Positions 355 through 16,842 of a stretch of DNA of 16,842 nt are shown here, one piece after another. This DNA is from Beijerinckiaceae bacterium (lineage in GTDB: Bacteria; Pseudomonadota; Alphaproteobacteria; Rhizobiales; Beijerinckiaceae), in NCBI GenBank assembly GCA_947458675.1, contig CANHAW010000005.1:1-16842 (forward strand), given 5' to 3'. The position numbers and the translations under genes were made by a program. The first letter of the stretch is position 1. The number at the start of each line of letters is the position of its first letter. A model generated the notes under the pieces. The model saw only the letters and a program-made list of their open reading frames with translations. It ran no database searches and was not told the origin of the DNA.

Positions 355-443
355 GGGCACCCCCTAGAAAGGCCATGCTCCTGGGGTGATATCGCCTTGG
401 GAGAGCGCCCGTCCGGCGCTCCGCTCACATGAAAGGGCCCATC

Positions 444-1469
444 ATGGACCTCAAGAATTTCTTCCGCGCTGCCGTCGTCGCCGCCACCACCGCGACGCTC
501 AGCCTCAGCGCGCAGGCCGCCGACATCACCGGCGCAGGCGCGACCTTCCCCTTCCCCGTCTATTCGAAATGGGCTGATGCCTATAAGACGCAGACCGGCA
601 CCGGCCTGAATTATCAGTCCATCGGCTCGGGCGCTGGCGTGAAGCAGATCCAGGCGCGCACGGTGACTTTCGGCGCGACCGATGCGCCTTTGCAGGCTCC
701 GCAGCTCGAGAAGGACGGCCTCGTCCAGTGGCCGATGGTCATGGGTGCGATCGTTCTCGTCGTCAATGTCGACGGCCTCAAGTCCAACGATCTCGTTCTC
801 GACGGCAAGACGGTCGGCGACATTTTCCTCGGCACGATCCGTCGCTGGGATGACCCCGCCATCAAGAAGCTCAATCCGAGCGTGAATCTCCCCGCCGCTC
901 CGATCAGCGTCGTTCGTCGCTCGGACGGTTCGGGCACGACCTTCAACTTCACTGACTATCTGTCCAAGGTCAGCCCTGACTGGAAGGCCAAGGTTGGTAC
1001 CGGCACGGCGGTCGAATGGCCGGTTGGCGTCGGCGCACGCGGCAATGAAGGTGTGGCTGGCAACGTCGGCCAGACGAAGAACTCGATTGGCTATGTCGAA
1101 TATGCCTATGCCAAGCAGAACAATCTGACCTATGCCGCCATGACCAATGCGGCTGGCAAGACGGTTCGCGCTTCGATCGCTTCTTTCCAGGCGGCCGCCT
1201 CCAATGCGGATTGGAAGGCCGAGGATGGTTTCTACCAGATCCTGACCAACCAGCCTGGCGATGCATCTTGGCCGATCACGGCAGCGACCTTCATCCTCAT
1301 GCATAAGCAGCCAGCCAATAAGGCAGCCTCGGCTGAAGCCCTGAAATTCTTCGAATGGGCCTTCGAGAAGGGCGACAAAATGGCGGAAGACCTCGATTAC
1401 ATCCCCATGCCCGATAATGTTGTGAAACTCATCAAAGACACTTGGGCGAAAAGCATCGTGACCAAGTAA
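444..1469 (+). CDS. pstS: PstS, periplasmic phosphate-binding protein
   Basis: This is the high-affinity phosphate receptor of the PstSCAB ABC importer, acting in the periplasm; 341 aa. I chose ATG 444 over ATG 429 because AAAGGG at 432-437 gives a 6-nt spacing and because the protein then begins with a normal Sec signal peptide, hydrophobic to about residue 24 and cleaved after AQA (mature [10 protein letters not shown]). Family motifs are GAGATFPFP near the mature N-terminus, SIGSGAG, FGATDAP, and the phosphate-binding RSDGSGTT segment in the middle. The length is normal. A Pho box at 337-354 predicts induction by PhoB when phosphate is scarce. The hairpin at 1478-1512 separates it from pstC. 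Confidence 0.97.
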
Positions 1470-1477
1470 GGTAGAAA

Positions 1478-1512
1478 GGCAGGCGCGGTGACCCCGCGCC
1501 TGCCGACTTTTT
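1478..1512 (+). terminator. Intercistronic terminator/attenuator between pstS and pstC
   Basis: A perfect 11-bp stem, GGCAGGCGCGG (1478-1488) with CCGCGCCTGCC (1494-1504), has a 5-nt loop; three bases later comes TTTTT (1508-1512). It begins 8 bp after the pstS stop and ends 43 bp before pstC. Placement inside the operon suggests partial termination or 3'-end protection of a pstS-only transcript, so that the binding protein outnumbers the permease. The stem is seen; the gene-dosage role is inference from how binding-protein operons commonly work. Confidence 0.8.
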
Positions 1513-1555
1513 ATTCTTCTGTAGACGCACGACCCAGAAGCGCGAGGGGGAGCAA

Positions 1556-2554
1556 GTGACCGATATCACGACGCAGGGAGCAAGCGAGGCCTCCAAGCCT
1601 TTTGATCGCGCCCGCGCCCTTGCCGCATTCAAATTGGGCGATTCAACCTTTTACTGGCTGACGCGCGTCTCTGCGCTCATCGTCCTGTTCATTCTGGGCG
1701 GGATCATTGTCTCGCTTGTCATCGGCGCCTGGCCGGCGATCAAGACATATGGCTTCGACTTTCTCGTCACGCGCCGCTGGGCGCCCCAGCTTGAGCCGAC
1801 ACCGATCCTGGGTGCGCTCGGCCCGATCTACGGCACGCTGGTGACATCCTTCATCGCCATGCTGATTGCCGTTCCGGTCGGCCTCGGCATTGCGATCTTC
1901 CTCACCGAATTTTGCCCGATCCGGCTGCGACGCCCCATCGGCACGGCGATTGAATTGCTCGCCGGCATTCCTTCGATCATTTACGGCATGTGGGGATTTT
2001 TCGTCCTTGCGCCTTTCATGACCGATCGTTTCATGCCCATGGTCATCAGAACATTCGAAGGCGTGCCGGTGCTGGGAACGATTTTTGCCGGTCCGCCCTC
2101 CTATCTGTCCTTGTTCAACGCATCGCTTGTTCTTGCCATCATGATCCTGCCGTTCATCACGGCCATTTCGCGCGATGTGTTCCAGACCGTGCCGCCCATG
2201 CTGAAAGAATCGGCCTATGGTCTTGGTTGCACGACCTGGGAAGTTGTTCGGAACGTCGTTATCCCCTTTACGCGCGCCGGCGTGATCGGCGGCATTATGC
2301 TGGCGCTCGGTCGTGCGCTCGGCGAGACAATGGCCGTGACTTTCATCATCGGCAATTCGTTCCAGATCAGCGGATCGATCTTTGCCCCCGGCACAACAAT
2401 TTCAGCAGCGATTGCGAGTGAATTTGCCGAAGCAGATGGCCTGCATATGTCGGCACTCATTTTGCTTGGCCTGCTTCTCTTCGTGCTGACATTCATCGTT
2501 CTGGCAGCTGCGCGGCTGATGCTGTCGCGGCTCGAAGCTCAAGCGGGGAAATGA
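1556..2554 (+). CDS. pstC: PstC, phosphate ABC transporter permease
   Basis: This is one of the two inner-membrane permease subunits forming the phosphate channel with PstA; 332 aa. The start is GTG 1556, placed by GAGGGGG at 1544-1550 with 5-nt spacing. About 38 mostly polar residues precede a first membrane helix at roughly 39-60; about five more hydrophobic segments follow. The MetI-type permease loop that contacts the ATPase (EAA motif) is visible as [20 protein letters not shown], followed by the conserved [12 protein letters not shown] stretch of PstC. pstA begins 4 bp after its stop, so the two are translationally coupled. Confidence 0.96.
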
Positions 2555-2558
2555 TCCG

Positions 2559-3404
2559 ATGAATCCGATCTACACCTCCCGCGCGCGCAACGACAAGATT
2601 GTGAGATTTCTCTGCCTTTTTGCGGCAGCTTTCGGTCTCATGTGGCTCGGCCTCATTCTGTTCACTCTGTTCTGGAACGGGCTGGCTGGCCTCAATTTTT
2701 CTGTCTTCACTGAAATGACGCCGCCGCCCGGTTCCAAAACCGGCGGTCTGGCCAATGCCATTTTCGGCTCCCTAATTATGACTGTGATCGGTGTCGGGAT
2801 TGGCGCACCGATTGGCCTGTTTGCCGGAACCTATCTCGCTGAATATGGACGGCATGAGAAGCTCAGCAATTATGTGCGCTTCATCAACGACATCCTTCTG
2901 TCTGCGCCCTCCATTGTGATCGGCCTCTTCATCTATGGCGCAGTGGTTGTGCCGATGGGTGGATTTTCGGGCCTTGCCGGATCGCTTGCTCTCGCCGTGA
3001 TCGTCATTCCGGTGGTGGTTCGCACAACTGAGGACATGCTGCTCCTGGTGCCAAACCAATTGCGCGAGGCAGCCTCTGCGCTCGGCCTGCCGCGCTCCCA
3101 TGTCATTCGCTCCATTGCTTACAAGGCAGCGCGCACGGGCATTGTCACCGGCATTCTGCTGGCGACAGCGCGTGTTGCGGGCGAAACAGCGCCGCTCCTC
3201 TTCACGGCCCTGTCGAACCAGTTCTGGAATGCCGATTTGATGAAGTCGATGGCGAACCTGCCGGTGACCATCAATAATTTCGTTCAATCGCCCTATGAAT
3301 ATTGGCGCCAGCTTGCCTGGACGGGCGCGCTCATCATCACGCTCGCTGTGCTTGCACTCAATATTGTTGCTCGCATGCTCGATGCCGAAAGGAAGAAGAA
3401 GTGA
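2559..3404 (+). CDS. pstA: PstA, phosphate ABC transporter permease
   Basis: This is the second permease subunit, partner of PstC; 281 aa, close to the short E. coli-type PstA rather than the N-terminally extended versions. ATG 2559 has GGGGAA at 2545-2550 inside the end of pstC. Hydrophobic helices begin at about residue 14. The EAA-like loop reads [18 protein letters not shown] and is followed by [15 protein letters not shown], the PstA counterpart of the PstC GETM segment. The stop TGA overlaps the GTG start of pstB (GTGA). Confidence 0.96.
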
Positions 3405-4216
3405 CCGACCTGCAAGTCATGACCGCCGTCAACGGCGACCGTGCCGCTCCTTCGCGCGACCGACATGTGACGCTCGAAGTTCGGGATCTCGATTTTTTCT
3501 ATGGAGAGGCCAAGGCGCTGAAGAACATCAGCCTCGATCTCGAGAGGCATAGTGTTACGGCCTTTATCGGACCCTCCGGCTGCGGAAAATCGACGCTGCT
3601 GCGGATTTTCAATCGCATGTATGATCTCTATCCCGGACAGCGCGCCGAGGGACAGGTCTTGCTTGAGGGCGAGAATATTCTCGATCCCAAGCTCGATCTG
3701 AATTTGCTGCGCGCGCGTGTCGGCATGGTGTTCCAGAAGCCGACGCCATTCCCGATGACGATTTATGAAAACATCGCTTTCGGGATCAAGCTCTATGAAA
3801 ATCTGTCCAAGAGCGAACTCGACGGGCGTGTGGAACATGCCTTGCGCGGTGCGGCTCTCTGGAACGAAGTGAAAGACAAGCTGAATGCCAGCGGGCTTTC
3901 GCTCTCGGGTGGGCAGCAGCAGCGCCTGTGCATCGCCCGCACGGTCGCCATTCAGCCGGAAGTCATTTTGTTCGATGAGCCCTGTTCGGCGCTCGATCCG
4001 ATTTCAACGGCCAAGATCGAAGAGCTGATCGACGAGCTGAAGGCGAAATATACGATTGCCATTGTCACGCACAACATGCAGCAGGCAGCGCGCGTGTCCG
4101 AATATACAGCCTTTATGTATCTCGGCGAGCTTGTCGAATTCGGCGAGACGACGCGTATTTTCACGACGCCTGAAAAGCGCCAGACGCAAGATTATATCAC
4201 CGGCCGTTTCGGCTGA
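3401..4216 (+). CDS. pstB: PstB, phosphate ABC transporter ATPase
   Basis: This is the cytoplasmic ATPase that powers the PstCA channel; 271 aa. The frame is open back to 3302 inside pstA, but the true start is GTG 3401, which overlaps the pstA stop by 3 bases and has GAAAGGAAG at 3387-3395. Counting from it: Walker [10 protein letters not shown] 57-65, Q-loop Gln112, signature LSGGQQQR 168-175, Walker B ending Asp192 with catalytic Glu193, H-loop His224 in THNMQQA. All catalytic residues are present. The N-terminal 20 residues are a short polar extension. phoU follows after 14 bp. Confidence 0.97.
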
Positions 4217-4230
4217 GGGAGCAGGAAGAG

Positions 4231-4941
4231 ATGACGGACCATACAGTCGCGCGATTCGACCAGGAGCTCGGCACGCTTGGCCGCTACATTGCAGAAATGG
4301 GCGGCATTGCAGAAAAAATGTTTTCCGACGCCATGGATGCGCTGATCTCCGCCGATATGGATATTGCGCGGACGGTTGTCGAAACCGATACGCGCCTTGA
4401 TGCCTTGCAGCGTCAGGTCGAGGAACTTGCCATTCTGACGATTGCGCGTCGTCAGCCCATGGCTGTCGATCTTCGTGAGATTGTGGCCGCCATTCGCATC
4501 TCGGCTGATCTGGAGCGGGTCGGCGATCTGGCTAAAAACATTGCCAAGCGCACATTGAAGATCGGTCCGGAAATGCGCATTCCGCGCGCGGCCGTCGGCC
4601 TGAAAAACATGGGCGATCTGGCTTTGTTGCAGCTCAAGAACGTGCTTGATGCCTATGCAGGGCGCGATCTGGAAAAAGCCAAGGATGTCTGGATGCGCGA
4701 TGCGCAGCTGGATGCGCTGGAAGATTCCGTTTTCCGCGATCTTCTGACCTTCATGATGGAAGATCCGCGCAACATTACTTTCTGCACGCATCTTCTGTTC
4801 TGTTCGAAGAATATCGAACGCGCGGGCGATCACACGACGAATGTTGCCGAGACCGTGCATTATCTTGTCTCGGGAACCAATCTCCCCGTCGAGCGTCCAA
4901 AGGGTTCGCTTGGCATGACAAATCTGGCCGGCAAGGCCTGA
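4231..4941 (+). CDS. phoU: PhoU, phosphate signalling regulator
   Basis: PhoU is a cytoplasmic protein that links PstSCAB transport to the PhoR-PhoB pathway and keeps the Pho regulon off when phosphate is plentiful; 236 aa, normal length. It is almost entirely helical, with two repeated PhoU domains of about 90 residues (roughly 20-105 and 120-210). The second is marked by FCTHLLFCSKNIERAGDHTTN and the first by the matching DLREIVAAIRISADLERVGD; such E/DxxxD patches bind metal in solved PhoU structures. ATG 4231 follows AGGA at 4223-4226 and GAGGGAG at 4215-4221. phoB starts within a few bases of its stop. Confidence 0.96.
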   Translation: MTDHTVARFDQELGTLGRYIAEMGGIAEKMFSDAMDALISADMDIARTVVETDTRLDALQRQVEELAILTIARRQPMAVDLREIVAAIRISADLERVGDLAKNIAKRTLKIGPEMRIPRAAVGLKNMGDLALLQLKNVLDAYAGRDLEKAKDVWMRDAQLDALEDSVFRDLLTFMMEDPRNITFCTHLLFCSKNIERAGDHTTNVAETVHYLVSGTNLPVERPKGSLGMTNLAGKA

Positions 4942-4945
4942 CGTG

Positions 4946-5665
4946 ATGCAGGTGTCGGGCAAGACAAACGCGCCGCGCGTTTTGATCGTTGAGGATGAAT
5001 CGGCGCTGGCGCTTCTTCTTGCCTATAATCTTGAGGCTGAGGGTTATCTCGTCGAGCGGTGCGATCGCGGCGATGAAGCCGAGGTCAGGCTTGCAGAAAA
5101 CATGCCCGATCTTGTCATCCTCGACTGGATGCTTCCCGGCGTTTCGGGAATTGAAATCTGCCGCCGCCTGCGCGCGCGCGATGCGACGCGGCAATTACCG
5201 GTCATCATGCTGACGGCGCGCGGCGAAGAGGGCGAACGCATTCGCGGCCTCTCGGTCGGTGCGGACGATTATGTCGTCAAGCCGTTTTCGGTCCCCGAGC
5301 TGATGGCGCGCGTGCGTGCACTTTTGCGTCGCGCGGCGCCCGAGCGGATAGCCGGTCGCCTGAATGCCGGTGATATTGAGCTGGATCGCGAGACGCGGCG
5401 CGTGCGCCGCTCTGGGCGCGATATCCATCTCGGGCCGACCGAATTTCGCCTGCTGGAATATTTGATCGAAAAGCCGGGTCGCATTTTCACCCGTGCGCAA
5501 TTGCTCGATTCGGTTTGGGGCATGTCAGCCGAAATCGATGAGCGCACGGTGGATGTGCATGTGGGGCGTTTGCGCAAGGCCTTGTCGCGCGGGCGCGAGA
5601 CCGACCCGATCCGCACAGTGCGCGGAGCGGGTTACGGCTTCGACGAGACATTCGGCAAGGCTTGA
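4946..5665 (+). CDS. phoB: PhoB, phosphate regulon response regulator (OmpR/PhoB family)
   Basis: This is a transcription factor that binds Pho boxes after phosphorylation by PhoR; 239 aa from ATG 4946. GTG 4943 is an equally readable alternative, as both share AAGG at 4933-4936. The receiver domain (about 10-125) carries the acidic pocket VEDE, phospho-acceptor Asp60 in VILDWMLPG, Thr90 and Lys112 in VVKPF. The C-terminal winged helix (about 140-235) shows LGPTEFRLLEYL and the recognition-helix region ERTVDVHVGRLRKAL, ending RGAGYGF. It is the last gene of the pst operon; its likely target is the Pho box at 337. No phoR lies next to it, so the kinase must be encoded elsewhere. Confidence 0.95.
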   Translation: MQVSGKTNAPRVLIVEDESALALLLAYNLEAEGYLVERCDRGDEAEVRLAENMPDLVILDWMLPGVSGIEICRRLRARDATRQLPVIMLTARGEEGERIRGLSVGADDYVVKPFSVPELMARVRALLRRAAPERIAGRLNAGDIELDRETRRVRRSGRDIHLGPTEFRLLEYLIEKPGRIFTRAQLLDSVWGMSAEIDERTVDVHVGRLRKALSRGRETDPIRTVRGAGYGFDETFGKA

Positions 5666-5677
5666 TCGGCCTTCGCG

Positions 5678-6382
5678 TCAGCGCGCAGCAGCGAGCTTGC
5701 CGAAATGTTCGACCACTTCCTCCGCATGCATGACATCGGCATATTTGTGATGCATGTCGAAGAGATTGACCTTGTGGGTGAGCGGCGCACGGTCGAACAC
5801 GCATTCTTCCACGACATTGACGTGATAGCCCGACGAGAAGCCCTCGACGACGCTGGCGCGTACGCAGCCGGATGTTGCCTCGCCCATCACGACGAGTGTG
5901 CGAATGCCCATCAGCGCGAGATGCGAGCGCAGCGGCGTTCCCTCAAAAATGCTGGCGCGTTGCTTGCGGATGACAATGTCTTCCTTGCGCACTTCAAAGG
6001 CGTGGTAAATATCGTAATCGTCGGCGCCGGGCGTGAATTGCCGGCGCTTCGTGGATATGGCGTCGAGCGGCCGATTGTTGGGCGCAATATCCTTGGTGCA
6101 GAAGATGATCGGGATTCCGGCCTTGCGCGCGGCCGCCAGAACGGCCTGCGTCGGCTCGATAGCCTTATGCGCATAGATGCCGCAGGAATTGGGATATTTT
6201 TCTTCCAATTCGTAAGGCGAATGCGGGCCGCCGCGATAGACAACATTATAAAGATCGATGGCAAGAACGGCAGGATTGGGTCCGATGAAAGTCTCGCGGA
6301 CATAGGTCTCGTAGAGTTTCAGATCCTCAGCCGGGACGACATCTTTCCAGCAATGATCCTCGAATTTTTCGCGCCCCGCCAT
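5678..6382 (-). CDS. Isochorismatase-like cysteine hydrolase
   Basis: 234 aa with the catalytic triad of the isochorismatase-like superfamily: Asp43 in VLAIDLYN, Lys140 in IVIRKQRAS, and nucleophile Cys173 in GEATSGCVRASVVEGF, preceded by the cis-peptide region MGEAT. The GEATSGC form of the active-site loop and a long N-terminal lead of about 38 residues resemble amidohydrolases such as N-carbamoylsarcosine amidase and related ring-cleavage amidases more than nicotinamidase; the substrate is not known. It has no signal peptide, so it is cytoplasmic. The start has GGGAG upstream on the minus strand. It lies 62 bp downstream of the phosphopantetheinyl transferase and converges with phoB, 12 bp apart. 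Confidence 0.85.
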   Translation of the reverse strand: MAGREKFEDHCWKDVVPAEDLKLYETYVRETFIGPNPAVLAIDLYNVVYRGGPHSPYELEEKYPNSCGIYAHKAIEPTQAVLAAARKAGIPIIFCTKDIAPNNRPLDAISTKRRQFTPGADDYDIYHAFEVRKEDIVIRKQRASIFEGTPLRSHLALMGIRTLVVMGEATSGCVRASVVEGFSSGYHVNVVEECVFDRAPLTHKVNLFDMHHKYADVMHAEEVVEHFGKLAAAR

Positions 6383-6444: not shown

Positions 6445-7182
6445 CTATTCCGTGGCCGGTTCAAAACCCAGAAGCTCCATGTCGGCGCATAGCGTGCAGA
6501 CGGCAGCCCATGCATCATGGGTGGGGCGGAAGGCATGGAGCGTTGTGGCTTGCGCCTTTTGCGCATGGCCGTCGATGGCGCAGATCTGCGCCGGCTGGTC
6601 GGGCAACAGGGTGACATCGAAGCTCGCCAATTGATTGGCAATGCCGGTGCCTGTGGCCTTCACATAGGCTTCCTTCCGCGTCCAGCAGGCATGGAAAGCG
6701 TCGAGTTGCTGGCTTTCCGGCAGGCTGGCAAGGGCAGCCCGTTCGCTTGGGGTGAAATAGGTTTTGGCAATCCGGTCGGGGCGCGTCACCTCGCGGCGCA
6801 TTTCGAGATCGATGCCGACCGGTGCTGCGCGTGTGATCGCGATCAGGCCCATTTGGCCGGAATGGGAGAGGTTAAAGCAGGGTGCATTTTCATAGTTCAG
6901 CGATGGCTTGCCCTGCTCGCTGATCACAAGAGGCAGCGCCTCGGGGGGGTGGCCTGTATAGAGCGCCAGGATCCGCCGCAGCATGGTGCGCGTATGGAGA
7001 AAGACGCGGCGTGAGGGTTCGTGGCGCATGCGCGCGGCGCGTTCTTCTTCCTCGCGGGCGAGCAAAAGCGTCTCGGGCATGTCATGCAGCTGCAATCGCC
7101 AGACATGGATGGCATTGGCGGCAAGCGGCGGGGGGGCGCCCTCAAGTGGAGACGGCTGGAATGCCAATTCAATCGTGGCCAT
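6445..7182 (-). CDS. 4'-phosphopantetheinyl transferase, Sfp type
   Basis: This enzyme transfers the phosphopantetheine arm of CoA to a serine of carrier proteins of non-ribosomal peptide, polyketide or fatty-acid synthesis; 245 aa, a usual length for the Sfp class (AcpS is about half that). Signature residues are present in order: GKPSL at 91-95, FNLSHS at 103-108, magnesium-binding Asp125 and Glu127 in VGIDLE, and WTRKEAYVKATG at 167-178 with Glu171 and Lys175. No carrier-protein megasynthase is in the window, so the client is unknown. No clear ribosome-binding site precedes ATG 7182, so the exact start is less certain than the family. Confidence 0.92.
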   Translation of the reverse strand: MATIELAFQPSPLEGAPPPLAANAIHVWRLQLHDMPETLLLAREEEERAARMRHEPSRRVFLHTRTMLRRILALYTGHPPEALPLVISEQGKPSLNYENAPCFNLSHSGQMGLIAITRAAPVGIDLEMRREVTRPDRIAKTYFTPSERAALASLPESQQLDAFHACWTRKEAYVKATGTGIANQLASFDVTLLPDQPAQICAIDGHAQKAQATTLHAFRPTHDAWAAVCTLCADMELLGFEPATE

Positions 7183-7250
7183 GAAGAATCATAGCACGGG
7201 TGCGAATTCCTCTCCAACGCCGTGTCCGGGCGGGTGGTGCAGCAATGCGC

Positions 7251-7265
7251 CTTTATGCCATAAAG
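7251..7265. promoter_or_regulatory. Short inverted repeat in the divergent PPTase/msrQ spacer
   Basis: CTTTAT-GCC-ATAAAG is a perfect 6-bp inverted repeat with a 3-nt centre, overlapping the palindrome AAAGCTTT at 7262-7269. It lies in the 108-bp spacer between two divergent genes, 26 bp before the msrQ start. It could be an operator, or chance in the only AT-rich patch of the spacer. Confidence 0.25.
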
Positions 7266-7290
7266 CTTTCGGCATTTTCGGAGGTTGAAC

Positions 7291-8133
7291 GTGCTGCCCT
7301 GGACCGACCGCAAAGGCCATGTTGTGCCGCTGAAGCTCGCCGTTTTTCTGGCGCTCTTCGTGCCGGGCCTATGGATTGCGTTTGACTGGTGGCAGGGCAA
7401 TCTCGCGCCCAAGCCGGTGACGGAAGCATTGCATGCGACGGGCACCTGGAGCACACGCATCCTGCTCTTGTCGCTGCTCATCACGCCCTTGCGCGCGATC
7501 CTGCATTGGCCGCGGGTGATCGATGTCAGGCGCATGGTCGGTGTCGGCGCTTTGGCCTATCTGCTCATTCATTTCAGTCTGTATATTTACGATCAGAAGT
7601 TGGATCTGTGGCGCGTGGCCAGCGAGATTGTTCTGCGCTTCTATCTCACCATCGGCTTTGTCGCTTTGCTCGGCCTTGGCATTTTGGGGCTGACATCGAC
7701 CGATGGCTGGGTGCGCCGCCTGGGTGCTGAGCGATGGAACAGGCTGCATCGCATCATTTATGTTTTGACGGTCCTGTCGCTCATCCATGCTTTTCTGCAG
7801 GCCAAGGTCGATGTCACCGAATGGGTCATCATGAGCGGATTGTTCATTGCGCTCATGGTCTGGCGGCGTCTGGCAAGGACGGGCTGGACGGGTCCGCTGG
7901 CTCTGGTGCTGCTGGCGCTTGGCGCGTCATTGGCAACCGCTTTTGTTGAGGCGGGGTGGTATGCGGGCAAGACCGGCGTCGATGCTTTGCGCGTTCTTGC
8001 TGCCAATCTCGATCCAGATCTTGCTTGGCGGCCGGCACAATGGGTTTTGATTCTCGTGCTGATGGTCGTGCCCTTGCGATGGGTGGGACAAAGGCGCGCG
8101 CAGGGGCGCAAACGGCCGATTGGCGGTGCTTGA
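7291..8133 (+). CDS. msrQ: MsrQ, heme-binding membrane subunit of the methionine sulfoxide reductase system
   Basis: This inner-membrane b-type heme protein passes electrons from the respiratory chain or a flavin reductase to periplasmic MsrP, which repairs oxidised methionine. The frame opens at TTG 7285, but GGAGG at 7280-7284 touches that codon; GTG 7291 has a 6-nt spacing and is the better start, giving 280 aa. Family marks are GTWSTRILLLSLLITPLR (51-68), His94 in the LLIHFSLY helix, and His153 and His166 in RLHRIIY and LIHAFL, the likely heme ligands. Beyond about residue 195 there is an extra segment with two more hydrophobic stretches that the ~210-aa E. coli protein lacks. No msrP is adjacent. 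Confidence 0.88.
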   Translation: MLPWTDRKGHVVPLKLAVFLALFVPGLWIAFDWWQGNLAPKPVTEALHATGTWSTRILLLSLLITPLRAILHWPRVIDVRRMVGVGALAYLLIHFSLYIYDQKLDLWRVASEIVLRFYLTIGFVALLGLGILGLTSTDGWVRRLGAERWNRLHRIIYVLTVLSLIHAFLQAKVDVTEWVIMSGLFIALMVWRRLARTGWTGPLALVLLALGASLATAFVEAGWYAGKTGVDALRVLAANLDPDLAWRPAQWVLILVLMVVPLRWVGQRRAQGRKRPIGGA

Positions 8134-8190
8134 GGCGTCGGGGTGGCTTTTGGCCGCAGGACTGGATAGAAAGGCCCATCGCGGCCATCG

Positions 8191-8216
8191 GGCCGCTACG
8201 GCCAGCGGCCGCTTTT
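8191..8216 (+). terminator. Possible weak terminator after msrQ
   Basis: GGCCGCT (8191-8197) pairs perfectly with AGCGGCC (8204-8210) across a 6-nt loop; GC and then only four T residues follow. It sits between msrQ and the helicase gene, 15 bp before the latter's start. The short T-run makes it doubtful; it could instead be a leader structure. Confidence 0.35.
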
Positions 8217-8231
8217 GCCTGAAGGTTTTCC

Positions 8232-10184
8232 TTGCCCTTTCCCGACATGATCCCGAGCCTCGCGAAGGCCCTTGCCGCGCGTGATTATTCCGAGCCAACG
8301 CCGGTCCAGCTCGCCGTTATCGATCCACAAACCCATGACCGCGATCTGCTTGTTTCGGCGCAGACAGGCTCCGGCAAGACCGTCGCTTATGGCATCGCCA
8401 TTGCGCCGACCTTGCTGGGCGAGGCCGAATTTTTCGGTATGGCGGGCGCGCCTCTGGCGCTGGTTGTCGCGCCGACGCGCGAATTGGCTTTGCAGGTGCA
8501 TCGCGAATTGTCCTGGCTCTATGCCGGTGCAAAGGCGCGTGTCGTGGCCTGCGTCGGCGGCATGGATCCGCGCCGCGAGCGCCAGATGCTGCAGCAGGGC
8601 GCGCAGATTGTTGTCGGCACGCCGGGACGCCTGCGCGACCATATCGAGCGCAAGGGTCTCGATCTCTCCGCCATTCGTGCCGTCATTCTCGATGAAGCGG
8701 ATGAAATGCTCGATCTCGGATTTCGCGAGGATCTCGAGGAAATTCTGAAAGCCATGCCGGAGGACCGGCGCACTTTGCTGTTCTCGGCCACTTTGCCCAA
8801 GGGCATTGTTACGCTGGCGCGCGATTATCAGAAAGATGCGATGCGCATTGAGGTCGGCGGTGGCGAGCAGGGCCATGCCGATATTGATTATCGCGCCTTG
8901 CGCGTCATGCCGCATGAAATCACACATGCGACGGTCAATCTGTTGCGCTTCTATGAATCGCCGGGTGCGATTGTTTTCTGCAATACGCGCGAAGCTGTGC
9001 GGCATATGCATTCGGCATTGCTGGAGCGCGGCTTTGCCGCTGTTGCTCTTTCGGGTGAGCTCAGCCAGAGCGAGCGCAATCATGCGCTGCAGGCTTTGCG
9101 TGACGGGCGTTCGCGCATTTGCGTGGCTACCGATGTGGCTGCGCGCGGCATCGATCTGCCCAATCTCAATCTCGTCATCCATGCCGAGCTGCCCAATGAT
9201 GCTGAAATTCTGAAGCATCGTTCGGGGCGCACGGGCCGCGCCGGGCGCAAGGGCATTGCGGTTCTTCTGGTGCCGGTGTCGCGCCGCCGCAAAGCCGAGC
9301 GGCTGCTCGTCGATGCCGGTTTGCAACCGGAATGGAGCGGCCCGCCGTCTGCTGAAGATGTGCGCAAGCTCGATCAGGAACGGCTCATCAAGGACGAGAT
9401 TTTCACCGAGGAGACGAGCGAGGAAGATCTCGCTCTGGCGCAGGCGCTTTTGGCCGAGCGCGCGCCGGAGGATATTGCGTCTGCGCTCGTGCGGCTCTAC
9501 CGCTCGCGCCTACCCTCACCCGAAGATGTCTCCGATCCCGGTTTTGGTCGCGACATGCGCCCGCCGCGTCCCGAGCGCGGACCGCGCGAGCCGGGCGGGG
9601 CCGGGCCCAGTGCGCCCATGCGTCATCGCGGCGAAGGCGTGTGGTTCCATCTCGATATTGGTCGACGCGACAATGCCGATCCGAAATGGCTTTTGCCGAT
9701 GATCTGCAAGCGCGGTGGTGTGTCGCGCGAAGCCATTGGCTCGATCCGGATTTTCGATCGCGAAACCAAATTCGAAGTCGCGGCCGAACATGCGCAAGCC
9801 TTTGCCGAGGCGATGCAGCGCCCCGGCAAGCCGGCAAAAAACGGCCAGCGGGATCCCAATTTCACGCGGATCGATGGTGCGCCCGCCAGGGACAAGCCGG
9901 CATTCCGCAAAACTTTTGCCGACAAGCCCCGAGACAAATTCGACGGGCCGAAAGGCGAGGGCGCCAAATTTGGCAAATCCAAATTTGAGAAGCCCAAATT
10001 TGAGAAATCCAAATTCGACGCGCCGAAGTTTGAGAAGCCCAAATTCGACGCGCCCAAGTTCGAAAAGCCCAAGTTTGAGAAGCCGAAATTCGACAAGCCC
10101 AAATTTGCGGGCAAGAAGTTCGACGGGCCGAATGTGGACAAGGGCAAGCCGAAAAAATTCAAGAAACCGCGCCCGACGGAATAA
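8232..10184 (+). CDS. DEAD-box ATP-dependent RNA helicase with DbpA-type RNA-binding domain and repeat tail
   Basis: This 650-aa RNA helicase is probably for ribosome assembly or RNA turnover. TTG 8232 is preferred (GAAGG at 8221-8225, 6-nt spacing); ATG 8247 has no such site. All core motifs are present: Q-motif Gln26, AQTGSGKT 43-50, PTRELALQ, TPGRL, DEAD 154-157, SAT 185-187, VFCNTRE, ATDVAARGID, and HRSGRTGRAG from 329. A DbpA/CsdA-like domain spans about 470-540 (VWFHLDIGRRDNADPKWLLP), the type that in E. coli DbpA recognises 23S rRNA. The final ~70 residues are a lysine-phenylalanine repeat tail (see the repeat at 9966). It resembles CsdA/DeaD in layout, but the clade is not certain. 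Confidence 0.93.
   Translation: MPFPDMIPSLAKALAARDYSEPTPVQLAVIDPQTHDRDLLVSAQTGSGKTVAYGIAIAPTLLGEAEFFGMAGAPLALVVAPTRELALQVHRELSWLYAGAKARVVACVGGMDPRRERQMLQQGAQIVVGTPGRLRDHIERKGLDLSAIRAVILDEADEMLDLGFREDLEEILKAMPEDRRTLLFSATLPKGIVTLARDYQKDAMRIEVGGGEQGHADIDYRALRVMPHEITHATVNLLRFYESPGAIVFCNTREAVRHMHSALLERGFAAVALSGELSQSERNHALQALRDGRSRICVATDVAARGIDLPNLNLVIHAELPNDAEILKHRSGRTGRAGRKGIAVLLVPVSRRRKAERLLVDAGLQPEWSGPPSAEDVRKLDQERLIKDEIFTEETSEEDLALAQALLAERAPEDIASALVRLYRSRLPSPEDVSDPGFGRDMRPPRPERGPREPGGAGPSAPMRHRGEGVWFHLDIGRRDNADPKWLLPMICKRGGVSREAIGSIRIFDRETKFEVAAEHAQAFAEAMQRPGKPAKNGQRDPNFTRIDGAPARDKPAFRKTFADKPRDKFDGPKGEGAKFGKSKFEKPKFEKSKFDAPKFEKPKFDAPKFEKPKFEKPKFDKPKFAGKKFDGPNVDKGKPKKFKKPRPTE
9966..10130 (+). 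repeat. Eleven tandem 15-bp units coding a KF-x-x-x pentapeptide tail
   Basis: Within the helicase gene, 11 consecutive 15-bp units each encode Lys-Phe plus three residues: KFGKS, KFEKP, KFEKS, KFDAP, KFEKP, KFDAP, KFEKP, KFEKP, KFDKP, KFAGK, KFDGP. Lys-Phe is invariant; position 3 is mostly Glu or Asp and position 5 mostly Pro. Third-position changes between units (aaa/aag, ttt/ttc) show the array is not a very recent expansion. Such basic low-complexity tails on DEAD-box proteins usually bind RNA without sequence preference. Confidence 0.9.
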
Positions 10185-11200: not shown

Positions 11201-12436
11201 TTACACAACGGTCTTTTTGGTGTCGGCATCCGCGGTCTTTTCGTACCAGCTCGGATCCATGCGGCATTCCACGCCGTTTTCCTTCAGCGTTGCCTCATAT
11301 TCGTTGCGGATATACGGATCTTCCATCCAATAGGGAATGGCCGTGCCGCCCTGGTTGACGTCGATCGCTGTATAATCGGTGTGCTTCTGGCCGGGTGCAC
11401 CGGGATCGCGTCCCGGATTGTGCGGGCCAAACCATGCCGTCAAACGGAAATCTTCCTTCGAGACGGAGAAGTGCTGGTGATACCAGCGTGCACCGCCCGG
11501 TGCCGCCGTCACGAGACCGACGGGCTCGTAATCGAGACGGTTGACCTGATCGGCCATGCCGTTTTCCCACGGACGTTCCCCGCAACGCTCCGGCCAGGAA
11601 TAGGTGTAGCCCTTGCCCTTCAGGCAGACGAGCACCGCGGCCGATGTATGCGCCTGGCCCTTGGAATAGCGGCCATTCTCGTGCTGACCAATCCAGAAAT
11701 AGAACTGGTTGTTGGTCATTGCGGGTTCGACGCGGCGATAGCCGACCGAGCGGCGGTTATCGAGCGGCAATTCGCAATTGATGACATCGGGGATGAAGTT
11801 CGTCTTGCGCTGCGCGAGGCCGCGCACCGGATCGGGCGAGATTTCATCCTTCGGCTTGAAGAAGTCTTCATCGCCCGAGAAACGATCGCGGAAGATGAAG
11901 GGATTGTTGAAGACGGCATCGACATTGTTGAGCTGGTTGAGCACGTTCGGCGCCGTATTGCCGGCGAGCAGGAGGGCTCCGCCCGAGGTCGCATTGACGT
12001 GGCGATACCAGGCATTCATCGGGATCGAGAACATCGAGCCCTTCTGCCATTCGAAAGTGAGCTTCTTCTTGTCGCCTTCCTGCCAGACTTCCGTTGAGCC
12101 GCGGCCTTCCACGACGAGGAAGATTTCCTCGTACATGTGCTTCTCGGGGTTCAGCGCGCCGCCCGGCGGCACTTCCACCACATAGCAGCCCCATTTCGTT
12201 TCCGTGCCGTAGAGCTGGATGAAATGGCCCTTGCCGCCGCGACGCTTCCAGTCGAACAGCGGCAGGTTCTGCACCTTGCTGATGCCGATGCCGCGGAAGA
12301 CCGGAATGCCTTCAGCTTCCATCCAGGCGTCATAGGGGGTCGGCTGTTTCTTGAACTCGCCAAAACCCGCCTTGCGCGTGCCTGACGGCTCGTGCCAGTG
12401 CTGGACGCCGTCTTTGCCGGCTACATCATGGGGCAT
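11201..12436 (-). CDS. Double-cupin domain protein (putative dioxygenase-like)
   Basis: 411 aa with two cupin beta-barrels. The first (about 80-160) has PGGALNPEKHMYEEIFLVVEG followed by SIPMNAWYRHVNAT, matching the two cupin motifs; of the usual metal-binding residues His100, a nearby Glu and the His of RHVN are visible, while the first His of HxH is Glu98. The second (about 255-345) has GQAHTSAAVLVCLKGKG and APGGARWYHQHFS. Bicupins of this layout include gentisate-type ring-cleaving dioxygenases, but I cannot assign a substrate. It has no signal peptide. GAGGAG lies about 8 nt before ATG 12436. It is 24 bp downstream of a Bug-type binding protein, suggesting catabolism of an imported carboxylate. 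Confidence 0.8.
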   Translation of the reverse strand: MPHDVAGKDGVQHWHEPSGTRKAGFGEFKKQPTPYDAWMEAEGIPVFRGIGISKVQNLPLFDWKRRGGKGHFIQLYGTETKWGCYVVEVPPGGALNPEKHMYEEIFLVVEGRGSTEVWQEGDKKKLTFEWQKGSMFSIPMNAWYRHVNATSGGALLLAGNTAPNVLNQLNNVDAVFNNPFIFRDRFSGDEDFFKPKDEISPDPVRGLAQRKTNFIPDVINCELPLDNRRSVGYRRVEPAMTNNQFYFWIGQHENGRYSKGQAHTSAAVLVCLKGKGYTYSWPERCGERPWENGMADQVNRLDYEPVGLVTAAPGGARWYHQHFSVSKEDFRLTAWFGPHNPGRDPGAPGQKHTDYTAIDVNQGGTAIPYWMEDPYIRNEYEATLKENGVECRMDPSWYEKTADADTKKTVV

Positions 12437-14718: not shown

Positions 14719-15183
14719 TCATTCCTCCACGCAGGCAGGCATTGTGACGATCACCTCGGCCTTGCCGGACCAGAATGATCCATCCGACATTTCGGCAATG
14801 GCGGTGATGAATTGCGTATCGTTGAGGCGCATGCGCGAGGCAACCTGCGCGCGCCCGCTGCGCGGTGTGAGATGGAAGGTCAAAACTTCCGGCAGCGGAT
14901 TTTTCTCGTTGAAAATGCCGATGCGCTTGACGTGATCCTGCCGCGTCATCGGGCTATCCACAGTGACGCTCAGCGGCACGGAATTTCCATTCTCGACCAG
15001 CAGGCTGATCTCAAGCTTGACGCGCCCATCTGCAATCGGCTTGCCGCCGGTGAATGTCTTGACTGCAGCCGCCATTGTCTCAGGCGTCGCGCGCGCGGTC
15101 GGCATGAGTGCGAAGGCACCAAGGCCGGCGCCGGCTGCAAGCGCTGCACGTCTTGTCAGTATGGCGGATTGTGAAGTCTTCAT
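14719..15183 (-). CDS. soxY: SoxY, sulfur-carrier subunit, with a non-canonical C-terminus
   Basis: SoxY carries pathway intermediates on a C-terminal cysteine. 154 aa with a Tat-type leader: TRRAALAAG at 10-18, hydrophobic to about 30, cleavage near ARA. The core strands ADGRVKLEISLLVENGNSVPLSVTV and MTRQDHVKRIGIFNEKNPLPEV are typical of the family. Odd: the usual terminal GGCGG is absent; the protein ends TMPACVEE, keeping one cysteine (Cys151) four residues from the end. The last codons coincide with the GGAGGA ribosome-binding site of soxZ. The start ATG overlaps the soxX stop (ATGA). It is likely the carrier by position and fold, but its activity is less certain. Confidence 0.92.
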   Translation of the reverse strand: MKTSQSAILTRRAALAAGAGLGAFALMPTARATPETMAAAVKTFTGGKPIADGRVKLEISLLVENGNSVPLSVTVDSPMTRQDHVKRIGIFNEKNPLPEVLTFHLTPRSGRAQVASRMRLNDTQFITAIAEMSDGSFWSGKAEVIVTMPACVEE

Positions 15184-15645: not shown

Positions 15646-16842
15646 TCAGCCGAACACTTCATGCGTGATCGTCTTGTACCAGCCCTCGGCGTAGCTCGCC
15701 TCCGCCGCGCGCACCGAGGCTGGCGCATTGGCCGGGCTGACGCCGCCTGCGCCTTGGATGTCGGCCAGCAATCCGCGATTGGGTGCATAAACGCCGGCAA
15801 CCGAGATCGCATAATCGGGCGTGATCAGCGAATAGCAGGTGTTGATCAATTTGGGGCTGCTCACCTCGCGCCCGCGCAGCATCAGGGAAACCGCCTGCGC
15901 GCAGGCCTTGGCCTGTGCATTGGCCGAGAAAGCCGATTTCGGCATGCCGCCGCCGATACAGGCATCGCCGATCACATGCACGCCGGGCTGCAGCTTTGAT
16001 TCAAATGTGACGGGATCGATGGGACACCAGCCGGTCTGATCGGCAATGCCGGAGGAGAGGGCAATATGTCCGGCGCGCTGCGGGGGAATGACATTGCCGA
16101 CATCGGCACGATGTTCGCCAAATTCCGTGACGAAGATTTTTCCTTTCGGCTTGATCGACGTGACTTTGCCGCCGCCAGACAGGCCGACCCATTCGATCAT
16201 CGTACCGTCAATTCCAAAAGTACCATCTATCCCCGATGACCCACTTGAACCAGAAGAACCAGCCGAACCTTGAGCTCCAGTCAATCCGCTTGTACCATCA
16301 CTTCCAGATGAACCCGAAGTTCCACTACTACCGCTTGTGCCAGAAGTTCCCGATGAACCACTTGTGCCACTACTACCACTTGTGCCAGAAGTTGCTGATG
16401 AGCCACTTGTACCGCTACTACCATTTATTGCAGAAGTTCCTGATGAACCACTCATACCGCTACTACCGCTTGTGCCACTACTTCCGGTTGTTCCCGATGA
16501 ACCAGCACTTCCAGTTGTGCCAGAAGAACCCGAAGTTCCTCTAGTGCCCGATGAGCCACTTGTACCGCTAGACCCGCTTGTACCACTACTTCCGCTTGTG
16601 CCAGCAGTACCATTTGTTCCATCAGCCCCCACTAAATCATTTGATGGTATCCAAATTATCCCGTCACCATTATCATATTGAATGTATAAAGTTCCTTCAT
16701 TTGAATTAAACCAAAGTTTTGCCTGTAAAGCAATATCGGGTGGAGTTTCTGATACAATAACATCAGCACCCATTTCGCCCGTATCACCCTTTTCACCCTT
16801 CATACCTTGAACACCAGTATTTGATATTACAATTTCGGGTGC
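15646..16842 (-). CDS. soxF: SoxF (flavocytochrome c sulfide dehydrogenase flavoprotein) C-terminal part fused in frame to a collagen-like, phage-type sequence; 5' end outside the window
   Basis: Residues encoded by 16200-15646 (184 aa) are the C-terminal part of an FCSD/SoxF flavoprotein: FGEHRADVGNVIPPQRAGHIA, GWCPIDPVTFES, GVHVIGDACIGGGMPKSAFS and INTCYSLITPDYAISV, the last holding a conserved redox-type cysteine. The expected N-terminal ~230 residues with the FAD-binding GxGxxG fold are missing. In their place the same frame continues, without a stop to the window edge, through ~47 Gly-X-Y triplets and an LWFNSNEGTLYIQYDNGDG module typical of phage structural proteins. Base composition drops sharply at the join. 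Best explanation: an assembly chimera or an insertion that has truncated soxF. soxX follows 1 bp downstream. Confidence 0.8.
   Translation of the reverse strand, partial: APEIVISNTGVQGMKGEKGDTGEMGADVIVSETPPDIALQAKLWFNSNEGTLYIQYDNGDGIIWIPSNDLVGADGTNGTAGTSGSSGTSGSSGTSGSSGTRGTSGSSGTTGSAGSSGTTGSSGTSGSSGMSGSSGTSAINGSSGTSGSSATSGTSGSSGTSGSSGTSGTSGSSGTSGSSGSDGTSGLTGAQGSAGSSGSSGSSGIDGTFGIDGTMIEWVGLSGGGKVTSIKPKGKIFVTEFGEHRADVGNVIPPQRAGHIALSSGIADQTGWCPIDPVTFESKLQPGVHVIGDACIGGGMPKSAFSANAQAKACAQAVSLMLRGREVSSPKLINTCYSLITPDYAISVAGVYAPNRGLLADIQGAGGVSPANAPASVRAAEASYAEGWYKTITHEVFG
16201..16629 (-). repeat. Collagen-like Gly-X-Y repeat tract (GTSGSSG type)
   Basis: On the minus strand this stretch reads as glycine at every third residue for about 143 residues, mostly GTS and GSS triplets, with only two glycine-to-alanine breaks (TSAING and SSATSG). 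At DNA level it is a degenerate 9/18-bp repeat. Ser/Thr-rich Gly-X-Y tracts next to short DGTxG motifs are common in tail-fibre and other structural proteins of tailed phages and giant viruses. It joins SoxF-coding DNA at 16200. Confidence 0.9.
16630..16842 (-). other. AT-rich phage-like structural module at the window edge
   Basis: This AT-rich segment (16621-16800 is 38% G+C by hand count) encodes, on the minus strand, GVQGMKGEKGDTGEMG (collagen-like) and then PPDIALQAKLWFNSNEGTLYIQYDNGDGIIWIP. The LWxxxxxGTLYIxYxDGD pattern recurs in structural proteins of aquatic tailed phages. It leads directly into the Gly-X-Y tract. The composition and content are foreign to the rest of the window. The protein has no start within the window. 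Confidence 0.65.

Follow-up and report, generated by a model that had tools for sequence, protein, structure and literature searches.

SoxF/FCSD flavoproteins, of which PDB 5N1T, 3VRD and 1FCD are structural representatives, provide the first point of comparison for the locus described here. In 1FCD, we take Cys42, Cys161 and Cys337 to be the FAD-binding cysteine and the redox disulfide, i.e. the residues that bind FAD covalently or form the disulfide. For SoxF numbering, we used an intact orthologue of 423 residues from an 18-sequence cluster (P0002), which matches all three structures over its length. It carries a VVIGGGFAG loop at residues 37-45, and its Cys71, Cys190 and Cys361 align with Cys42, Cys161 and Cys337 of 1FCD, respectively.

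Two other bodies of work are relevant. The collagen domains of Escherichia coli prophage fibre proteins are described as trimeric in PMC3368898. As for metagenome-assembled genomes (MAGs), misassembly that joins fragments of different sources is among the errors described in PMC8201837, where it is presented as relatively rare compared with mis-binning.

The window analysed here, i.e. the whole stretch of 16,842 bases, is the entire contig C5 of a draft Beijerinckiaceae genome and contains no N. The draft amounts to 2,175,565 bases in 343 contigs, with 77.46% completeness and 1.42% contamination. As the window is all of the contig, its odd part is a contig end. We conclude that the junction at position 16200 is most likely an assembly chimera: C5 would break off within a soxF gene of the usual kind, and would have been extended in error by some 640 bases of fibre-protein DNA of phage type.

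An incomplete soxF gene in a long open frame

The features concerned are as follows.
15646 to 16200, minus strand: 3' part of soxF (host DNA), 184 codons and a stop, corresponding to P0002 residues 240-423 (97% identity); PF09242
16196 to 16204, minus strand: very probable misjoin point, where DNA homology to the soxF genes of relatives ends (11 of 11 matches in the genus; flanks of relatives)
16201 to 16630, minus strand: Gly-X-Y (collagen-type) tract, foreign, of phage-fibre type; PF01391 and PHROG tail families
16631 to 16842, minus strand: non-repeat module (KLWFNSNEGTLYIQYDNGDG...), of phage-fibre type, cut by the contig end; relatives in P0241 and L032, GC 0.368

The minus-strand frame 15646-16842 comprises 398 codons without a stop up to the contig end. 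Upstream of the ATG at 16200, it remains open through the Gly-X-Y tract and the phage-fibre-type module to 16842, so that the junction lies some 640 bases from the right-hand end of C5. The C-terminal FCSD flavin-binding domain PF09242 is present on 15646-16203 (94.2 bits for a cut-off of 26), and BLASTP aligns frame residues 213-398 with P0002 residues 238-423, with 180 of 186 positions identical (97%). Upstream of the soxF part, the other alignments to P0002 are at chance level (E of 7 or worse). The original prediction had SoxF homology begin at Met-Ile-Glu-Trp-Val with the N-terminal half missing, and this is what we found: the ATG of MIEWV starts at 16200 and corresponds to P0002 residue 240, and hence residues 1-239 of 423 are missing from C5.

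The N-terminal FAD-binding part is not in the C5 frame, and because residues 1-239 are absent from it, we have not filed the fused frame as a SoxF/FCSD flavoprotein. The VVIGGGFAG loop, Cys71 and Cys190 are absent from the fragment, which retains only Cys361 of the three cysteines compared. With the loop and two aligned cysteines missing, the fused frame, if real, would not be expected to act as a flavocytochrome c flavoprotein.

Other genes of the window were also inspected. The SoxY gene next to SoxZ (14719-15183, minus strand) matches TIGR04487, ‘SoxY-related AACIE arm protein’, with 199 bits for a cut-off of 172, and falls below the cut-off of the true SoxY model TIGR04488 (96 bits for 125). 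Its product ends in PACVEE at the C terminus, not in a GGCGG arm. The gene at 8232-10184 (plus strand) codes for a DEAD-box helicase that has a DbpA RNA-binding domain and, in the translation, a long series of KPKFE/KSKFD-like repeats at its end. Region 429-5665 (plus strand) appears to be a phosphate-uptake operon (Pst/Pho), as its Pfam domains are those of a binding protein, two permeases, an ABC ATPase, PhoU and a response regulator.

A foreign tail of phage-fibre type

The tail comprises 214 residues, namely a short module with KLWFNSNEGTLYIQYDNGDG followed by a collagen-type tract. Collagen PF01391 is found on 16201-16842 with 80.4 bits (cut-off 27.2), which bears out the claim that a Gly-X-Y tract lies upstream of soxF in the same frame. 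Thirty PHROG families match the tail; the 25 listed include 14 tail, 2 head and packaging and 9 unknown families, bearing in mind that a Gly-X-Y query matches partly through composition. PF01391 is also found in 3 of 14 control bacteria; the tract alone is thus not phage-specific and proves little.

The non-repeat module is more informative in this regard. With residues 1-72 as the query, one protein among 19 candidates was retrieved, P0241 (66% over 65% of the region), three of whose four PHROG matches are tail families. P0121 starts with KGDKGEKGD and contains Gly-X-Y repeats and KLWFDSNEGTLYVQYED modules. In the viral locus L032, the module matches at 64% over 47 residues; the ORF concerned lies some 1 kb downstream of the gene for a major head protein (phrog_138, 244 bits). 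Relatives of the tail are encoded by 66 viral loci, the best-ranked at 58%, and residues 1-72 were matched in two of them. Modules resembling KLWFNSNEGTLY are found close to Gly-X-Y tracts in several phage-type proteins, namely in L032 (4674-5480), L067, P0121 (twice) and P0241; PF01391 is the only Pfam accession listed for P0121 and P0241.

The tail therefore combines a Gly-X-Y tract with a non-repeat module common to phage proteins, as collagen-like phage fibre proteins do. It is not a complete protein in a phage gene neighbourhood, since C5 ends inside the gene and the downstream neighbour is soxF. Judging from its module relatives (P0241, P0121 and L032) and from the PHROG tail families, the tail is phage-type structural-protein DNA whose source phage was not found among those searched. 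A tblastn search of 50,697 phage records, with the low-complexity filter on, gave no match to the tail, and a degenerate pattern for its GTLYIQYDN stretch had no occurrence in the viral contigs searched. In the remainder of the draft genome, nothing matches the tail or PF01391. We also considered the collagen tract as a bacterial adhesin and rejected this idea, as the NCBIfam Scl/Lcl adhesin models gave 53-70 bits, far under their cut-offs of 325-500.

The base composition changes at the junction. The original prediction of a fall in GC stands, but its course is less simple than had been claimed: GC is 0.619 in the soxF part, 0.516 in the mostly Gly-X-Y region 16201-16630, and 0.368 in 16631-16842, for 0.467 in the tail as a whole. 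By comparison, the lowest GC of any 642-base stretch is 0.54 in C5:1-16196 and 0.567 in contig C124 (see below). GC at the three codon positions is 0.60/0.52/0.73 in soxF. The first 213 bases of the frame have 0.52/0.38/0.21, and the remainder of the tail has 0.41/0.91/0.23. Third positions thus fall threefold at the join, from 0.73 to 0.22, within one supposed gene.

A front part of this type of soxF is present on a second contig end

P0002 has four matches in the draft genome, on contigs C5, C124, C236 and C76. The C5 match covers residues 238-423 (97%), and that on C124 (positions 3-326) covers residues 1-108 (94%). The C124 soxF frame runs off the contig end at residue 108 without any foreign sequence, and a search with the first 250 bases of C124 gave no match in the other contigs of the genome. 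Residues 109-239 were found in no contig of this genome. Adjoining the soxF start on C124 (L095, 323-3335, minus strand) are genes for a small protein resembling a cytochrome (22.4 bits, which is below the Pfam cut-off), for a molybdopterin-binding subunit of a hydroxylase and for a 2Fe-2S subunit.

We compared the two contigs by blastn with three related MAGs (loci L096, L097 and L098). In all three, C124 and the end of C5 are aligned in one line, on either side of an uninterrupted soxF. In L096, C124 covers 12-1815 and 1934-6224, and C5 covers 6635-9148; L097 and L098 agree. The stretch missing between the two contigs is about 393-400 bases, corresponding to residues 109-239. We infer that C124 and C5 adjoin each other in the organism itself, linked by about 0.4 kb of missing soxF. 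The soxF front on C124 is of the same type as the C5 part, and may be of the very allele found on C5 rather than that of another strain.

The matches on C236 and C76 belong to a second soxF, which we considered as the source of the missing front and rejected: it is a paralogue, with 45% identity in the C-terminal part and 53% (C236) and 49% (C76) to P0002. This second copy (L099 on C236, L100 on C76) adjoins its own SoxY- and SoxZ-like genes, which score below the NCBIfam cut-offs. This copy, too, is interrupted: its two parts lie at contig ends that share an overlap of 155 bases at 94% identity, as strain variants might. A 25-base match in contig C3 was rejected as a contig link; it corresponds to window positions 16126-16150, a part of soxF, and on C3 it is far from either end (position 11751 of 19276), so that it looks like a chance match.

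The arrangement of soxF over two contig ends, one of them with phage-type DNA, is also what might be seen if phage DNA had truly inserted into soxF, in the strain or in part of the population, with both contigs ending at or near the insertion. Several observations speak against this scenario. The C124 end carries no foreign sequence, and since this contig stops at residue 108 and C5 resumes at 240, a single insertion would leave about 131 codons to be accounted for by a deletion or by another gap. Moreover, what is phage-like here is an internal piece of a structural gene, and nothing else in the genome matches the tail. The proposal of a viral integration that truncated soxF found no support, and we regard it as very improbable.

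The junction was not found in the other genomes and viral contigs searched

A 121-base query across the junction was searched in 51 genomes of the genus, including that of this organism. Among the 50 others, 11 gave a match, in all 11 cases on the soxF side only and ending at 16196, 16198 or 16200; the other 39 have no match and are uninformative at this site. In the relatives, the aligned flanks differ from the window upstream of the ATG at 16200. The SoxF C-terminal part was found as a protein in 48 of 61 genomes, again including this one. A 30-base pattern of the junction had no occurrence in the viral contigs searched, and a literature search for SoxF with collagen-like proteins was without result: of two papers with both terms, the one listed deals with hemidesmosomes.

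The two halves were also searched separately in bacterial and viral sets, as had been proposed. Patterns from the intact protein identified 104 soxF loci; in the best 80, a set that favours intact genes because of those patterns and of this selection, residues 200-280 are crossed in one piece without a stop (80 of 80) and the tail module is never present. Conversely, none of the 66 viral loci with tail relatives contains soxF. No protein annotated with both PF01391 and PF09242 is among the matches listed (120 of 4335 for the whole frame and 120 of 1760 for residues 1-212), in searches that scored only the candidates with most words in common. Each side of the junction has intact relatives of its own, and neither side's relatives show the junction, in the genomes and loci compared and among the protein matches listed.

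These results bear on the idea of a real translated fusion, with a collagen-like stalk preceding a C-terminal SoxF fragment. The continuity of the frame over 398 codons speaks for it, but the fragment lacks the loop and cysteines detailed above, no such fusion appears among the protein matches listed or in the best 80 of the 104 soxF loci, and third-position GC changes threefold at the join. We consider it exceedingly unlikely that a Beijerinckiaceae-type strain harbours a hybrid gene for a phage collagen stalk continued by the SoxF C-terminal part, and the fusion proposal, less probable still than an insertion, gained no support. If true, it would place a SoxF fragment on a triple-helical stalk, and a sulfur-oxidation operon would have recruited DNA of a phage fibre gene.

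Discussion

An assembly chimera, already the leading reading of the original prediction, is favoured by several lines of evidence. A soxF front is found at the end of C124, and three relatives have the gene intact, with the two contigs colinear around it. Homology breaks off sharply, base composition shifts at the join, and the tail, which lies at a contig end, has relatives of phage type. Finally, the junction was not found in the genus genomes and viral contigs searched. The assembler may have stopped inside soxF from both sides, leaving out about 0.4 kb, and the C5 side may then have been led astray into DNA of a phage present in the sample. The extension might stem from a fragment or read that was itself chimeric, or from a false graph path or short overlap between host and phage DNA of that sample. 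What stopped the assembler could be strain variation, as hinted at by the overlapping contig ends of the second soxF copy. In relatives, the bases before the ATG differ from those of the window, so that the soxF (host) side shows no shared word long enough to account for a false graph path.

Some observations go against a chimera. The frame is open through the junction, as a real fusion would need, and the phage records and viral contigs searched did not yield the exact source phage. Nevertheless, by simple reasoning, two open frames of the same sense would be joined in frame by chance in about one case out of three, and the open frame is thus weak evidence for a real fusion. That misassembly is rarer than mis-binning provides a mild prior against a chimera, which is outweighed by the specific evidence.

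The main value of this finding lies in quality control. A phage-type tail of 640 bases leaves a draft genome looking clean (1.42% contamination), and yet databases would receive from it a spurious protein, a spurious link between host and virus, and a sulfur-oxidation gene that seems truncated. In the organism, soxF is probably intact; the sulfide/thiosulfate pathway should therefore not be scored as broken on this evidence.

Comparison with known systems

Relative to the SoxF/FCSD flavoproteins of known structure (PDB 5N1T, 3VRD and 1FCD), C5 encodes an ordinary C-terminal part, residues 240-423. It differs from them in that residues 1-239 are absent from the contig, residues 1-108 of such a gene being found on C124. 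As for collagen-like phage fibre proteins (PHROG tail families, and EPclA of E. coli O157 prophages as described in PMC3368898), the C5 tail has the Gly-X-Y tract in common with them, and its non-repeat module is also shared by P0241, P0121 and the viral locus L032. Unlike these proteins, the tail is truncated twice, once where the contig ends and once at the join, and no phage with this sequence was found. Finally, C5 as interpreted here resembles the chimeric MAG contigs described in PMC8201837 in that fragments of different sources are found in one contig, but the present case, compared with those described there, joins host and phage DNA and involves only about 640 bases.
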